Origin: Sphingopyxis chilensis
GTDB taxonomy: Bacteria; Pseudomonadota; Alphaproteobacteria; Sphingomonadales; Sphingomonadaceae
Length of the DNA: 64,000 nt
Assembly (NCBI RefSeq): GCF_035930445.1
Contig: NZ_CP142394.1
Span: forward strand, 2,513,501 to 2,577,500
Direction: 5' to 3'
Below, in pieces: positions 53,409-60,482 of this stretch (position 1 is its first letter; the number at the start of each line of letters is the position of its first letter). Under the pieces are notes generated by a model that was given only the letters and a program-made list of their open reading frames with translations, searched no databases and had not been told where the DNA came from. The translations under genes were made by a program, and so were the position numbers.

Positions 53409-54776
53409 ATGACAGTCAAAACGCTCCCCACCCAGCCGAAGGTCGGCATGGTTTCGCTCGGCTGCCCCAAGGCGCTCGTCGACAGTGAACGGATTCTGAC
53501 CAAGCTGCGCGCCGACGGCTACGGCCTCTCGCCCGACTATGCGGGCGCCGACGTCGTGCTCGTCAACACCTGCGGCTTCCTCGACTCGGCGAAGGAAGAA
53601 AGCCTCGAGGCGATCGGCGAGGCGATGGCCGAGAATGGCCGCGTCATCGTCACCGGCTGCATGGGCAACGAGGCCGAGGTTATTCGCGCGCGTTTTCCCA
53701 ACGTGCTCGCGGTCACCGGCGCGCATCAGTACGAGCAGGTCGTCGACGCGGTCCACGACGCCGCGCCGCCGACCCAAGGGCCGTTCGTCGACCTCGTCCC
53801 CGAGGGCGGGCTGAAACTGACGCCGCGCCACTACAGCTATCTCAAGATCAGCGAAGGCTGCAACCACAGCTGCTCCTTCTGCATCATCCCCGATCTGCGC
53901 GGCAAACTCGTCAGCCGCCGCATCGACGCGGTGCTGCGCGAGGCCGAAAAGCTCGTCACCGCAGGGACCAAGGAGCTGCTGGTCATCAGCCAGGACACCT
54001 CGGCTTACGGCGTCGACATCCGCCACGACCCGCGCCAGTGGAAGGGCCGCGAAGTCCGCGCCCATATGACCGACCTCGCGCGCGAACTCGGCCAATTGAA
54101 GACCAGCGAAGGCAAGGCCCCGTGGGTTCGCCTCCACTATGTCTACCCCTACCCGCACGTCGACGCGGTGATCCCGCTGATGGCCGAGGGGCTGCTCACG
54201 CCTTATCTCGACATCCCCTTCCAGCATGCGAGCCCGAGCGTGCTCAAGCGCATGAGGCGCCCCGCGAACGAAGCGAAGGTGCTCGAACGGCTGAAAAGCT
54301 GGCGCGCCATCGCCCCCGACATCTCGATCCGATCGAGCTTCGTCGTCGGCTTCCCCGGCGAGACCAAAGCCGATTTCCAATATCTGCTCGACTGGCTCGA
54401 CGAAGCCCAGCTCGACCGCGTCGGCGCCTTCCGCTTCGAACCCGTCGCGGGCGCACAGGCGAACGCGCTCGACAATCCGGTGCCCGAGGAGGTCAAGGAA
54501 GAGCGCTACCAGCGCATCATGGCGAAGACCGCCGCGATCAGCGCCGCCAAGCTCGAAGCCAAGATCGGCCGCACCCTGCCCGTCATTATCGACGAGGTCG
54601 GCGACGCGGATGAAGACGGCAGCATCGGCGCCACCGGCCGCTCGCAGGCTGACGCGCCGGAGATCGACGGCCATGTCTATCTGCGCGACGTCGCTGCGAC
54701 GCTGAAGGCCGGCGATATCGTCGATGTCGAAATCGAGGATGCCGACGAGCATGACCTGTTCGGGGTGGTCGTCTAA
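53409..54776 (+). CDS. rimO: Ribosomal protein S12 methylthiotransferase
   Basis: Adds a methylthio group to Asp88 of S12 by radical SAM chemistry; 455 residues. N-terminal MTTase domain with [17 protein letters not shown] and TGCMG cysteines; radical [15 protein letters not shown] domain at the C-terminus. Confidence 0.96.
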
Positions 54777-56335
54777 CCGCCCGATTGCGACGAGGCGGGC
54801 GCCTGCTGCTCCAGCCAGCGTTTGCCGGCGGGCGTGACAAGCGAGGACGGCAGGTCGCGTCCGACCTCGTTATAGACCGCGGCCACGTCGGGGCGCGCCT
54901 TGAGCGGCAGGAAATTATCCTCTCCATCCGTCCGCACGGCCTGCGTCGTGAACTCCTGCCCTTGCAGATTGCGCAGCATGTCTGTGCGCAGCTGGGGATC
55001 GCGGAGCGCCTCGATCACAATCTCCGCGGCTCGATCGCTCCGTCCGGCGCATTGCAACGCCTCGACCGCCGCCGACGGCGAGTCGGTGCGGTTTTTCTCC
55101 ACGGTGGCGAGCAGCGGCAGCGATTCAGCCTCCCGACCGAGTTTCTCCAGCGCGCAGGCGCGGTCCGCGGCGAGAAACTGCCGCACATAGGGGCTGCCAT
55201 ATTGGCTTGCCACAAAGATGGCACGCTCGGATGCCGCCAACGCCTTCTCCCAGTCGCCCATTCTCGCCAGGCGGGCGGCCCGATTCGCGACGAAGTTGAC
55301 CAGCCAACCATTCTTGTTCGCATCGAACGGGATCGCAGCCATCGCGTCGAACAGCGCGTTCGCTTCCGCTTCGCGCCCCAGTCCGTCCAGCGCATTGGCC
55401 CGCGAATCGAGGGCCCAGAAATGATATTCGCCCAGCGTCTCGAACTTCGCCGGATCGGCGAAAGTCTCGGTCAGCGCCAACACCTCGTCATAACGGCCGG
55501 CCTCGTCGAGCGCGGTGACAAGCGCCGACAGCTTCTCGACATCCTCGGGACTCCGGCGCCGGTCGGCCCGCGCCCTTCCGATATTGGTTTCGAACGCGGT
55601 CGCCATGTTCGGCCCCGCGCTGCGTTCAAGCTCGGGCCAGAAAGCGGAATAGCGGCGATCGGCGAGCAGGCGGAAATACCAAATGGGCTCGGTGATGCTG
55701 TCGAGCAGCGGCCTCGCGGCCTCGATATTGCCGGCCTCTACCTCGCGCATGAACACGCTCTCGCGGACATTATCCCGGTCACGGTCAGACAGGGTCCGGA
55801 AGATCGGCGCATTTACGAAGCGGCGGTTCAGGGCCAATGCCAGATCGGGTCGGTCGGCCTCCGCCAGCTTGCGGCCCAGCCAGCGAAAATTGTTGATCGG
55901 GTCAGCCAGTCCGCCCGCGTCGGCAGGCTTCATCGTCCCGGCGATCAGGCGGTCTATAGCCGCATCATATTGCTTCGCTTCCAGCGCAATCATCACCGTG
56001 GCGATCGGCGCCACGACCGGGCCGTTTACCTTTTCGTTCTTGATCAGCAGCGCATAAGCCTCGTCATAACGCTTCTCGTCGATCGCGCATTGCAGGTCGA
56101 ACCGCAGCTTGAACGAGACAAAGCTCGGATCGAAAGATTTCCGCCGCACGATCTCCGTCAGGACCGGGACCATGTCTCGGCACGCGCTCGTCCCTTCCGC
56201 GGCGTAGAGCGCCGTAGCCCGCTTCAGCAGCGCGTCATTATCGAGGCTGGCCGGGTCGACTGCGGGCGTCTCGGTTCCCCGCACCCCGGACGACAAAAAG
56301 GCGAACAGGAGCAAACCAACGGCCCAGAATCTCAA
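54773..56335 (-). CDS. Secreted protein of helical repeats, unrecognised
   Basis: A 520-residue protein with signal peptide ([15 protein letters not shown]) and a long all-helical body reading like TPR or SEL1-type repeats ([40 protein letters not shown]). No family recognised. TTG start at 56335 with GGAGG seven bases upstream. Convergent with rimO, overlap four bases. Confidence 0.65.
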
Positions 56336-56406
56336 ACCACATCCTCCCCGCCTGATCGCAGACGAACATGAAGCGGTTTGGCCCGCCTGTCAAAAGCCGT
56401 CAAAGG

Positions 56407-57420
56407 TCAGAACAGCCGCGTGATCCCATAGAAGGCCGCCGCGACGAGCGCGCTCGCCGGGATGGTGATGAACCACGCCGCGACGACATTGCCCGCAACA
56501 CCCCAGCGCACCGCGCTCGCGCGGCGCGCGACGCCGGCGCCGATGATGCTGCCGGTGATCGTATGCGTCGTTGATACCGGGATGCCGAGCAGGCTGGCGG
56601 TGAACACCATGATCGACCCGCCGGTCGACGCGGCAAAGCCCTGATGATGCGACAGCTTGGTGATCCGCCCGCCCATCGTCTCGATAATCTTCCACCCGCC
56701 GGAGAGCGTACCGATCGCGATGGCGATATAGCAGCTGAACGCAACCCAGTGCGGGACATGGAACTCGCCCGACAGATAGCCGGTCGAATAGAGGAGGACA
56801 GCGATGATCCCCATCGTCTTCTGCGCGTCGTTGAGCCCGTGGCTCAGCGAATAGGCGGCGGACGAAAAGAGGTGGAGGGTGCGGAAGGTGCTCTCCGCGA
56901 ATTTCGCCGTAGCGCGGCGTAGAGCCCAGCTGCTGACCAGCATCACCAGCATCGCGAGCACCATGCCGAGCATTGGCGACAGGAAGATAGCGATGACGGT
57001 CTTGTTGAGCCCGGTCCACTGGATACCCTCGAATCCCGCGTGCGCCACGCCCGCGCCGACGATCCCGCCGACGAGCGCGTGGCTCGACGAGGAGGGAATG
57101 CCCTTGAGCCAGGTGACGACGTTCCAGAACATCGCCCCGACCAGCGCGCCGAACACCACGGCAGGCGTCACCAGATCCTTGTCGATCAGTCCCGCGCCGA
57201 TCGTCTCGGCCACCTTGTGCAGCGCCGGAAAGGCGAGGCTGAGGAAATAGGCGGCGAAGTTGAAGAAGGCGGCGAAGATCACCGCCTGAACCGGCTTCAG
57301 CAGGCGCGTCGCGACCACCGTCGCGATGCTGTTCGCGGCGTCGTGCAGCCCGTTCAGGAAGTCGAACGCCAGCGCGAGGATGACGAGGCCGACGAGGAGC
57401 GGAAAAGCGAGTTCGTGCAT
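56407..57420 (-). CDS. Low-affinity inorganic phosphate transporter (PiT family)
   Basis: Takes up metal-phosphate with protons; 337 residues with about ten helices. Signature FDFLNGLHDAANSIATVV at the N-terminus and a matching copy later (AYSLSHGLNDAQKTMGIIA). GIPSSSSHALVGGIVGAGV and GIPVSTTHTITGSI are the paired pore loops. It follows the Nudix-DUF47 gene by 15 bases and is surely co-transcribed. Confidence 0.95.
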   Translation of the reverse strand: MHELAFPLLVGLVILALAFDFLNGLHDAANSIATVVATRLLKPVQAVIFAAFFNFAAYFLSLAFPALHKVAETIGAGLIDKDLVTPAVVFGALVGAMFWNVVTWLKGIPSSSSHALVGGIVGAGVAHAGFEGIQWTGLNKTVIAIFLSPMLGMVLAMLVMLVSSWALRRATAKFAESTFRTLHLFSSAAYSLSHGLNDAQKTMGIIAVLLYSTGYLSGEFHVPHWVAFSCYIAIAIGTLSGGWKIIETMGGRITKLSHHQGFAASTGGSIMVFTASLLGIPVSTTHTITGSIIGAGVARRASAVRWGVAGNVVAAWFITIPASALVAAAFYGITRLF

Positions 57421-57435
57421 CGGGACGCCCCTCGC

Positions 57436-58560
57436 TTACGCGTGGTCGATGACCAGGCCGTCGATTTCGTTCGCGACGTCCTCGAAACTGTCGGTGACGC
57501 GTTCGAGATGGCGGAAAAGTTCACGCGCGATCAGGAAGCGCGTCGGATTCGCCTCGCCATGCTCGCGGAACAGGCGCTTGAGCCCGGCGGCGTGAATTTC
57601 GTCGGCGTGCCCTTCCATCCGCACCAGCCGCTCGGTGAGTTCGTGAAGGCGCGGACCGTTGGCGCCGATGTTGCGGAGCAGCGGCAGCGCCTCGGCGGTG
57701 AGGCGCGCGGCATCGACGATGATGCCCGCTATATCGCGCATTTCGGGCTCGAATTCGGTAACGTCATAGAGGTCGACCGCGCCCGCGGTCTTCTGCATCT
57801 CGTCGATCGCGTCGTCCATCGAGGCGATCAGGTCGGTAATGGCGCTGCGGTCGAACGGGGTCAGGAAAGTGCGGCGGACGGTCTGCAGCACTTCGCGGGT
57901 GATCGCATCAGCGTCATGCTCGCGCTCGATGATTTCCTGCACATGGTCGGCCATTCCCTCGCCGCCCTGCAGCATGCGCGACAGCGCATTGGCGCCGGCG
58001 ACGAGCGTTGCGGCGTGGCTTTCGAACAATTCAAAGAAATTTCCCTGTCGCGGCAGCAAACGCTGAAACCATGCGAACATCCAGCTAACCCCTGTCTTGT
58101 CGGCTACATTATGGGCGACCCCGCGCGGCTGGGCAACGGCGCGGAAGCCGCTGTCGCCGAACGAGCGGATCAGCGCTTGCAAATCGGGCTCGTCGACCGC
58201 CGACGCGGCGTCACTGAACGAGAACCATTTGCGGTCGCGTTCGTCCATTTCCTTCCAGTCGTCGAGTTCGTTCGTCACCGCGAGAGGGAAGACTTCGACG
58301 TTGTACATGATCGACGCGCCGTTCGCGCGGCGCTTCCTATATTCATAACTGCCGATCGGCGTCGGGCAGACCGCGCCGATCACCCCCGCCTCTTCCTCGG
58401 CTTCGACCGCTGCGGCGGCGTGACGCGTCATACCGTTCAGCGGATTGCCCTTCGGCACCACCCAGCGCCTGGTCTCGCGCGATGTGATCAAAAGAATTTC
58501 GGTCGGACCGTCCTGCTGAGGTCCGCCGAATCGATAGGGTAGGACCGCGATCTGGCGCAT
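57436..58560 (-). CDS. Nudix domain fused to DUF47 (PhoU-like) phosphate transport accessory
   Basis: A 374-residue protein of two parts in one frame. Residues 1-145 are a Nudix hydrolase of the DIPP-type class: TSRETRRWVVPKG and a Nudix box with VEAEEEAG in place of REAxEEAG (metal glutamates kept, arginine lost). Residues 161-374 (MFAWFQRLLPRQGNFFELFE onward) are a full DUF47/PhoU-like protein, which regulates PiT transport. The second ATG (58080) has AGGGG eight bases upstream, so DUF47 may also be made alone. Upstream of the PiT gene. The fusion may be ancestral or a lost stop. Confidence 0.85.
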   Translation of the reverse strand: MRQIAVLPYRFGGPQQDGPTEILLITSRETRRWVVPKGNPLNGMTRHAAAAVEAEEEAGVIGAVCPTPIGSYEYRKRRANGASIMYNVEVFPLAVTNELDDWKEMDERDRKWFSFSDAASAVDEPDLQALIRSFGDSGFRAVAQPRGVAHNVADKTGVSWMFAWFQRLLPRQGNFFELFESHAATLVAGANALSRMLQGGEGMADHVQEIIEREHDADAITREVLQTVRRTFLTPFDRSAITDLIASMDDAIDEMQKTAGAVDLYDVTEFEPEMRDIAGIIVDAARLTAEALPLLRNIGANGPRLHELTERLVRMEGHADEIHAAGLKRLFREHGEANPTRFLIARELFRHLERVTDSFEDVANEIDGLVIDHA

Positions 58561-58699
58561 TTAGATCAATCCTTTCCTATGGTTGGTACGGCGCGATGGC
58601 AGAATGATGACAATCGGGTTTCGCCCCTATGACAATAATGTGACAGCGACAAGGGGAGCGCCGCCGTTTCGGCCCCTACTTTCACGGCTGTCAATTCGA

Positions 58700-58712
58700 T
58701 TGCAAAATGCAA
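58700..58712. promoter_or_regulatory. Inverted repeat upstream of the monooxygenase
   Basis: TTGCAAAATGCAA, five-base arms around three As, 46 bases before the ATG. Could be an operator or part of a promoter; no regulator is linked. Confidence 0.3.
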
Positions 58713-58757
58713 CGCGGTGCGTAAGCTGCCTCCCAAAGACAGATGGGAGACGAAACG

Positions 58758-60296
58758 ATGGCAGGCACGGCGACGATGGAACGCCCCGTGGACGCAAAGG
58801 CTGCACCGGTCGATCAGGACGTGCTGATTGTCGGCGCCGGCATTTCGGGCATCGGCATGGCCGTGCATCTGCAGATGAATTGCCCGGACCGCAGCTTCAC
58901 ACTCGTCGAGCGCCGCGAACAGCTTGGCGGCACCTGGGACCTGTTCCGTTACCCCGGCATCCGTTCGGACAGCGACATGCACACGCTCGGCTTCATCTTC
59001 GAACCGTGGAAACATGAAAAGTCGATCGCCGATGGGCCGGCGATCCTCGACTATCTCAACCGGATCGTCGACGAGCGCCATATTCGCGAGCGCATCCGCT
59101 TCGACCGCAAGGTCGTCGGCGCCGACTGGGACAGCTCAGCCGCGCGCTGGACGGTCACGATGGAAGACGGCAAGGGCGCGACAACGACGACGACCGCGCG
59201 CTGGCTCTATCTCGGTTCGGGCTATTATGATTATGACGAGCCCTTCGACGCGCAGTTCGCGGGGCGTGAGGATTTTCAGGGACAGATCATCCACCCGCAA
59301 TTCTGGCCGAAGGATCTTGATTACAAGGACAAGAAGATCGTCGTGATCGGGTCGGGCGCCACCGCGGTCACCATCGTCCCCTCGATGAAGGAAGCCGCAC
59401 ACGTCACGATGCTCCAGCGCACGCCGACCTGGTATTTCATCCGCCCGGCGAAGGACGGCTTCGCCAATTTCCTGCGCAAATTCCTGCCCGAAAAACTGGC
59501 GTACAGGATCACGCGCTTCAAGAACGTCCGGCTGCAGGACATAGCCTTCCGCCGCGCGCGAGAGAGGCCCGAGAAGGTCAAGGAGTTCCTGACCAAGAAG
59601 CTGAAGGCAAGCCTCGGCGACCATTATGATGCCGAGGCCTTCACCCCGCCCTACAACCCCTGGGAACAGCGGCTGTGCCTCGTCCCCGACGCCGATTTCT
59701 TCGAGGCGATGAAGGCAGGCAGGGCGTCGGTGGTGACCGACCATATCGAGCGGTTCGATGCGGCGGGCATCCAGCTCAAATCGGGCAAGCATCTCGACGC
59801 CGACATCATCATCACAGCGACCGGCCTGAAGCTTGCGGTCGCTGGCAAAATCCCGGTGCGTGTCGATGGCGCGCCCGTCCACTGGAACGAACATTTCTAT
59901 TACAAGGCGTGCATGTTCTCGAACGTTCCGAACTTCTCGGCGGTGTTCGGCTATCTCAATGCGAGCTGGACGCTGCGGGCCGACATCGTGTCCGAATATG
60001 TCTGCCGCGTGCTCAACCATATGCGCGACACGGGAACGACGGTCGCGACGCCGGCGCTCGCCGATCCGTCGAGCCTCGAGGAAGAAAATGTCTTCGACTT
60101 CTCGTCGGGCTATATCCAGCGTTCGCTGCACATCATGCCGAAGAGCACGGCCACCCTGCCCTGGCGGCTCAGCCAGCATTATGTCCAGGACCGGATCGAC
60201 ATGCGCACCGGGGCGATCGCCGATGGCGTGCTGACCTTCACCAATGCGAGGGCGAAGGTCGCGGCGGCTCCAGCGGAACTCGAAGCAGCCGAGTAA
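58758..60296 (+). CDS. Flavin-containing monooxygenase, Baeyer-Villiger type
   Basis: A 512-residue FAD/NADPH enzyme. VLIVGAGISGIGMAVHL binds FAD, VIGSGATAVTIVPS binds NADPH, and FQGQIIHPQFWP matches the FxGxxxHxxxWP signature. GGGAG eight bases before the ATG at 58758 fixes the start; an ATG at 58743 is less likely. Oxidises ketones or related carbonyl compounds; substrate unknown. Confidence 0.92.
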   Translation: MAGTATMERPVDAKAAPVDQDVLIVGAGISGIGMAVHLQMNCPDRSFTLVERREQLGGTWDLFRYPGIRSDSDMHTLGFIFEPWKHEKSIADGPAILDYLNRIVDERHIRERIRFDRKVVGADWDSSAARWTVTMEDGKGATTTTTARWLYLGSGYYDYDEPFDAQFAGREDFQGQIIHPQFWPKDLDYKDKKIVVIGSGATAVTIVPSMKEAAHVTMLQRTPTWYFIRPAKDGFANFLRKFLPEKLAYRITRFKNVRLQDIAFRRARERPEKVKEFLTKKLKASLGDHYDAEAFTPPYNPWEQRLCLVPDADFFEAMKAGRASVVTDHIERFDAAGIQLKSGKHLDADIIITATGLKLAVAGKIPVRVDGAPVHWNEHFYYKACMFSNVPNFSAVFGYLNASWTLRADIVSEYVCRVLNHMRDTGTTVATPALADPSSLEEENVFDFSSGYIQRSLHIMPKSTATLPWRLSQHYVQDRIDMRTGAIADGVLTFTNARAKVAAAPAELEAAE

Positions 60297-60299
60297 GCT

Positions 60300-60482
60300 T
60301 TAGTCGGCGTGCTCGGGCTTGCCCTTGGTCGAGCCCTTGGCGAAATCCTCGAGTTGCTTTTCGGTCATGCTGTCGGCCATCTCTTTCGACGCGCCCTTGA
60401 GCTTCGACTTGGGCGTGTCGCCGCGCTTGGCACTGAGCGCCGCGCCGGCGGCTTTCTGCTGGGCTTTGGATTTGGCTGGCAT
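60300..60482 (-). CDS. DUF3008 small protein
   Basis: A 60-residue basic protein of the DUF3008 family (MPAKSKAQQKAAGAALSAKR, SKLKGASKEMADSM). AAAGGAG precedes the ATG. Function unknown. Convergent with the monooxygenase, three bases apart. Confidence 0.88.
   Translation of the reverse strand: MPAKSKAQQKAAGAALSAKRGDTPKSKLKGASKEMADSMTEKQLEDFAKGSTKGKPEHAD

Follow-up and report, generated by a model that had tools for sequence, protein, structure and literature searches.

A gene in the 64,000-nucleotide stretch of Sphingopyxis chilensis DNA analysed here (the window) joins a Nudix hydrolase domain to a DUF47 domain in one reading frame, immediately ahead of the gene for a PiT phosphate transporter. 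Judged by comparison with relatives, this fusion is real and old. The explanation we prefer, with a probability of about one half, is that the gene encodes a PitR-type regulator of PiT with a tethered Nudix domain, made as two products, which would tie the hydrolysis of polyphosphate or dinucleoside polyphosphate (ApnA) to PiT or to Pho signalling.

The fused gene and its Nudix domain

The gene occupies positions 57436–58560 of the minus strand (stop codon 57436–57438) and was delimited from the ORF, its Pfam matches and its relatives. Translation of the window gives 374 aa with an ATG start, no internal stop and a calculated mass of 41.8 kDa. Pfam places NUDIX at residues 17–126 (PF00293, 31.0 bits against a gathering cut-off of 21.1) and PhoU_div/DUF47 at residues 170–371 (PF01865, 141.4 bits against 24.4). 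The DUF47 domain has the PhoU-like helical fold; its score with NCBIfam TIGR00153 (56.2 bits) lies below the curated cut-off of 104.3 bits, and it is not assigned to that family. Combining Pfam and conservation with a structure model and its PDB fold matches, we place the Nudix hydrolase domain at residues 1–137 (58150–58560, minus strand). It is followed by a linker at residues 138–160 (58081–58149, minus strand), which is without a stop in all 177 fused relatives, a set selected as fused, and which the structure model predicts with low confidence, as for disorder (pLDDT below 50 at residues 138–158). The DUF47/PhoU_div (PitR) domain, residues 161–374 (57439–58080, minus strand), starts at an internal ATG and is predicted to be a separate product of 214 aa and 24.1 kDa as well. 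A Shine-Dalgarno sequence, AGGGG (58089–58093, minus strand), lies 8 nt 5′ of this ATG and is conserved, and the main start at 58560 has the ribosome binding site AGGAAAGGA (58570–58578, minus strand).

The PiT gene (56407–57420, minus strand; 337 aa; Pfam PHO4/PiT, 309.5 bits) begins with an ATG 15 bases beyond the stop codon of the fused gene. The first-pass annotation had described a Nudix domain and DUF47 in one continuous frame, PiT 15 bases on, and AGGGG eight bases before an ATG at 58080, all of which is borne out. This PiT is the only PHO4 match in the genome, which also has seven Nudix matches and a single PhoU gene carrying two PhoU domains. Elsewhere in the window, a 520-aa ORF with no Pfam match (54773–56335, minus strand) stands beside a radical-SAM/TRAM gene (53409–54776), and a small Lys/Ala-rich ORF of 60 aa (60300–60482, minus strand) is found between a monooxygenase-like gene and an SDR gene.

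A full Nudix box reads GX5EX7REUXEEXGU. The box of the fused protein is incomplete: compared with DIPP/NUDT3 and yeast DDP1, it has M44 in place of the first Glu and V52 in place of the Arg (Arg79 in DDP1), and it retains E53, E56, E57, G59 and V60. Among 177 distinct fused ORFs, the glutamates expected to serve catalysis and metal binding are kept, E53 and E57 each in 177/177 and E56 in 175/177 (Asp in the other two). The basic residues R32 (177/177), K37 (175/177, Arg in the other two), K76 and R108 are conserved as well, and from its sequence the domain looks intact. DIPP/NUDT3 and DDP1, which hydrolyse diphosphoinositol polyphosphate, ApnA and polyphosphate, form the comparison group for this domain. 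In fold comparisons of the Nudix model, DIPP, MutT1 and Ap6A/Ap4A hydrolases all fall within about 2 Z units; MutT1 and the ApnA hydrolases score within about 1–2 Z of DIPP and DDP1, so the fold leaves the substrate class broad. Of the DDP1 phosphate clamp (Arg32, Lys63, Arg102 and Arg171), Lys63 has a conserved equivalent in K37, the other three not being settled by pairwise alignment. Inositol pyrophosphates are termed eukaryotic signals in several abstracts.

Distribution of the fusion and of its Nudix partner

The check proposed in the first-pass annotation, a search of close relatives for the same frame, found the frame kept. A full-length, stop-free fusion is present in 34 of 36 genomes of the genus, the window's own included; of the two exceptions, G015 matched by a Nudix alone and G017, a genome 85% complete with 7% contamination, had no match. 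Among 298 genomes of the family, 116 had any match, 91 (counted from the listing) carry the full fusion and 13 carry DUF47 without a fused Nudix. In the loci kept from named records, which come from Sphingopyxis, Novosphingobium, Sphingomonas and relatives, the fused frame is open in 80/80, with matches over at least 372 of the 374 residues. Of 207 fused ORFs, 206 are followed directly by a PiT gene in the same orientation (median gap 15 nt), and the remaining one lies at a contig end. These 207 include species present in two collections and correspond to 177 distinct ORFs; loci L178–L207 were removed as duplicates before the conservation counts, and a set of 118 rows is an earlier subset of the fused ORFs. 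In one genome (G299; L167 1830–2935) the fused gene is broken inside DUF47 into two overlapping pieces, which may be an assembly error or real, and this locus was entered as fused by its longer piece.

Outside the family, few candidates were scored per genome and absence is not firm: at this depth, 24 genomes representing the order's other families gave no match, full-length fusions in the class sample (385 genomes) were limited to the window's own genome and three f46 genomes of one genus, and in the phylum sample (398 genomes) the full-length fusions among the matches listed, in order of E-value, were all from family f1. The f46 genomes (G389, G612 and G516, with loci L137, L138 and L139) are labelled as another order and carry fusions that are 65–69% identical. 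The one f46 sequence placed in the DUF47 tree nests within the family clade, and horizontal transfer is a possible origin of the f46 fusions.

The DUF47 tree combined 57 representatives of the fused genes with 9 unfused loci of the family, 7 other Alphaproteobacteria chosen by hand and 4 + 2 + 1 operon or divergent cases. All family sequences, whether or not they are fused, fall to the same side of a branch with support 100/97. The unfused members are scattered among the fused ones, with supported branches that force at least six changes (the root was not tested), and because of this scatter we read the history as one old fusion followed by several losses of the Nudix half. Ten of the 13 unfused family genomes were fetched. 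Separate Nudix and DUF47 genes with a stop between them, the arrangement that the first-pass annotation had expected in relatives if the fusion were not genuine, were found in one of these loci (G186) and not in the other nine. Upstream of the unfused DUF47 genes we detected no convincing Nudix remnant in nine loci.

The same two partners also occur near each other as separate genes. We examined 80 alphaproteobacterial loci, from neither f1 nor f46, in which DUF47 is unfused; 13 of them have a separate Nudix of the same type in their flanks (up to 4–5 kb, some shortened by contig ends), 7 of 51 in the class sample and 6 of 29 in the phylum sample. Of the 69 DUF47 places in the class sample, 51 were retrieved; 4 others belonged to the window's own genome or to f46, and the last 14 were left out as fragments or as weak or long-frame matches. 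The phylum sample gave 31 close alphaproteobacterial DUF47 hits, 29 fetched and 2 already in the set. The gene order was DUF47-PiT-Nudix in eight loci (L215, L216, L217, L219, L333, L337, L343 and L354) and Nudix-DUF47-PiT, as separate genes, in L224; the Nudix gene was divergent in L223, L352 and L353 and lay 2.7 kb beyond PiT in L208. With so few of these Nudix genes (one to a few in a genome of several Mb), we would expect adjacency by chance at well below 1%. The remaining 67 of the 80 loci had no such Nudix in the fetched flanks, so the link to Nudix is optional. In other classes, where 11 of 21 listed genomes with DUF47 were fetched, no Nudix of the same type was found near DUF47 in the 11 loci.

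These distributions bear on the most serious rival explanation, according to which the fusion is a co-expression device only, a housekeeping Nudix (for example one for ApnA clearance) having been joined to PitR with each domain working independently. We regard this as possible but somewhat unlikely. The two halves can part company: besides the 13 family genomes with DUF47 and no fused Nudix, there are standalone Nudix genes (L262 4651–5055 and L263 4886–5296) that nest in the fused clade of a Nudix tree built with 29 of the 57 fused representatives (every other one), and these have persisted although their genomes (G176 and G211) have no PiT match. The low-confidence linker would suit two independent domains. 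A Nudix of the same type is also present without a PiT match in G015, and its retention in such genomes means that the enzyme can act without PiT. What one accidental fusion does not explain is that other alphaproteobacterial families bring the pair together too, unfused and in several layouts. The L263 Nudix ends in a short stretch resembling the start of DUF47, and G152 and G191 have a same-type Nudix and PiT with no DUF47 match.

The internal start and a probable second product

The gene probably makes two proteins, the fusion and DUF47 (PitR) alone. The first-pass annotation had suggested that DUF47 may be made both ways, and at the level of sequence this gains support from a conserved internal start codon, its Shine-Dalgarno sequence and the start found in unfused relatives. 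Across 57 cluster representatives (80% identity), pairing with the 16S tail at the internal start averages −6.36 kcal/mol. The average at 493 other in-frame Met is −2.90 (p 2.7e-18), and synonymous resampling of the upstream codons weakens pairing at the internal start to −4.48 (p 2.8e-7). Pairing reaches −6 at 30/57 internal-start sites, compared with 44/493 of the other in-frame Met. An ATG start occurs in 46 clusters, 44 of them with it at the aligned position and 2 with it two codons upstream; a further 2 clusters have GTG, and the remaining 9 have neither codon. Among 54 near relatives, the Gly157 codon is GGG in 54/54, whereas 237/1404 (17%) of Gly elsewhere use it, and the Thr156 codon is ACA in 40/48, whereas the figure for Thr elsewhere is 32/1013 (3%). 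Where the family has other linker peptides, the Shine-Dalgarno sequence is retained through different codons. All ten fetched unfused family loci have a start at the equivalent place (ATG in 8 and GTG in 2, the script choosing the start nearest the domain), and in the unfused G316 and G151 the region resembling the fused genes starts a short way 5′ of the Shine-Dalgarno sequence. In the same 54 sequences GC3 is 0.52 over codons 150–160 and 0.81 over the whole gene, which fits a translation start region without being specific to one. ATC or ATT replaces the internal start codon in five loci (L290, L294, L295, L313 and L314), three of which still have Shine-Dalgarno pairing of −7.7 or stronger.

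It is unlikely, in our judgement, that the full-length fusion is the sole product and that the internal Shine-Dalgarno sequence and ATG are leftovers of an ancestral separate DUF47 gene. This would account for the nine cluster representatives with neither ATG nor GTG and for synonymous diversity around the internal start, which is not reduced in the 54 sequences and counts against a second start. It would have to explain why a start codon is nonetheless found in 48 of the 57 clusters, with differing peptides and a Shine-Dalgarno sequence that is strong on average, why near relatives retain two uncommon codons, ACA and GGG, and why unfused loci scattered among the fused ones in the tree have ATG or GTG at the equivalent place in ten cases out of ten.

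Less probable still is the opposite case, that there are in practice two separate proteins, DUF47 being made from its own start (translational, or by way of an internal promoter) and the long product being cleaved or negligible, with a functionless fusion. In its favour, the internal initiation signals are strong and the linker is predicted with low confidence. A sigma-70 scan of 56200–58800 also gave two promoter-like sites against 0.5 expected, and one of them (58108–58136, minus strand), inside the gene and just 5′ of the internal ATG, could instead drive a DUF47-only transcript in this genome. This site is not conserved, however, reaching at least 9 of 12 in 2/54 near relatives and 1/57 clusters (6/1566 and 3/1683 in control windows). 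Two separate proteins also fit poorly with a frame that is open across the 91 family genomes and replaced by a stop-separated form in a single fetched family locus (G186), and the nine clusters without an internal ATG or GTG would need the fusion, which implies that DUF47 function can be supplied by the fused protein. Nothing was found in favour of a sequencing or assembly artefact, or of the lost stop codon that the first-pass annotation had entertained, and their probability is negligible, as the same frame in 34/36 genus genomes, 91/298 family genomes and 80/80 named-record loci rules out the former and an open linker kept through the family excludes a recent loss.

Pho boxes, proposed mechanism and known systems

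Upstream of the main start, a pattern search found a Pho box, CTGTCACATTATTGTCAT (CTGTCAC-ATTA-TTGTCAT; 58629–58646, minus strand), and, 33 bp (3 × 11) from it, a second Pho-box-like site with one mismatch (58596–58613, minus strand). Pho boxes are defined as 7-bp CTGTCAT-type repeats 4 bp apart (PMC3131613), and the first site has two such repeats at this spacing with 12 of 14 consensus bases. It is the sole exact match to YTGTCAYN4YTGTCAY in the 3.95-Mb genome, the reversed pattern having none. With at most one mismatch there are 2 sites in the window against 0.07 expected; allowing up to two, 115 sites occur genome-wide and a control pattern gives 44. Within the 54-member cluster, all but one sequence (53) reach 11 of 14 or better. 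Across the 57 clusters, a box of at least 11 of 14 with a shuffle p of at most 0.05 was found in 18, none being clear in the others; among unfused DUF47 loci a box of at least 11 of 14 occurs in 16/38 from close Alphaproteobacteria, 4/42 from distant ones and 4/11 from other classes. The Nudix-PitR-PiT operon is probably a member of the Pho regulon, under putative control by PhoB that may be of either sign. The tandem boxes, which are absent from the first-pass annotation, lie at 58596–58646 between the operon and a divergent flavin-monooxygenase-like gene at 58743 and could serve either. Elsewhere in the genome, two facing Pho-box-like sites with 2 mismatches each (G000:C1:2178913–2178951), which precede the PhoU domains at 2183771 by about 4.8 kb, may mark a pst promoter.

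In the explanation we prefer, that of a PitR-type regulator with a tethered enzyme, DUF47 would act as an accessory regulator of PiT, with a Nudix hydrolase of its own attached through a flexible linker. Translation from 58560 would yield full-length Nudix-PitR and translation from the internal ATG (58080) would yield PitR alone, and because PitR proteins form dimers (PMC11705898), dimers with two, one or no enzyme heads would probably arise. The Nudix head would most likely cleave a molecule with a polyphosphate chain, either short polyphosphate or ApnA. The level of this molecule would report the phosphate state, and PitR, and through PitR either PiT activity or Pho signalling, would follow its turnover. 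The presence of both products in the cell, the mixed dimers and the Nudix substrate are what we infer; on the basis of gene association, a link between hydrolysis and phosphate import is the most economical reading.

A bolder proposal, which we advance tentatively, is that the tethered Nudix is an enzymatic input to Pit control. The Pho-regulon operon would set the ratio of enzyme-bearing to plain PitR at the transporter by full-length versus internal initiation, and the Nudix, by hydrolysing a polyphosphate or ApnA ligand, would reset PitR; in some other Alphaproteobacteria this enzyme would be the separate third gene of the DUF47-PiT operon. If true, a signal-turnover step would be built into the control of bacterial phosphate import. 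The signal sensed by PitR-type regulators is not settled, and a natural PitR-hydrolase fusion, together with the unfused neighbour pairs in other families, suggests a possible chemistry for it. The gene is moreover a candidate case of one frame encoding enzyme-bearing and plain subunits of the same regulator, for which lineages that have lost either half offer natural controls.

PitR (DUF47, PhoU_div, UPF0111/Yka) is known as an accessory regulator of PitA, from which the gene described here differs in encoding a Nudix enzyme at the N terminus and in having a second start within its frame. In S. aureus, PitR is reported to be paired with PitA and to restrain the phosphate two-component system, and the regulation of phosphate homeostasis by PitR and its cognate Pit has experimental support there (PMC13170248). 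Two-hybrid tests in S. aureus gave no significant PitA interaction (PMC11705898), and according to the 2026 PitR paper import and cellular sufficiency both seem to affect signalling (PMC13170248). The main text of that paper contains neither the word "fusion" nor the word "Alphaproteobacteria". Literature searches returned no paper on a Nudix-DUF47 fusion among the matches listed, and automatic annotation (the JGI name) already names both domains; the architecture appears to be recorded and, as far as these searches reach, unstudied.

We take orfA of S. meliloti to be a DUF47 gene. In the S. meliloti orfA-pit operon a Pho box closely precedes the putative translation start, as here, and the operon is reported to be repressed upon Pi starvation; the comparison with the Nudix-PitR operon is one of box position (PMC3131613). 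Salmonella SpaO and archaeal Cas11b are likewise cases of one frame with two products, the short one arising by internal initiation (PMC13059759, PMC11899642); their short products have been reported, whereas that of Nudix-PitR is predicted from its gene. The NptA transporter, with its C-terminal PhoU domain (PMC13170248), is a further instance of a PhoU-like regulator fused to a part of a phosphate system, the partner of PhoU in NptA being the transporter and the partner of DUF47 here being an enzyme.
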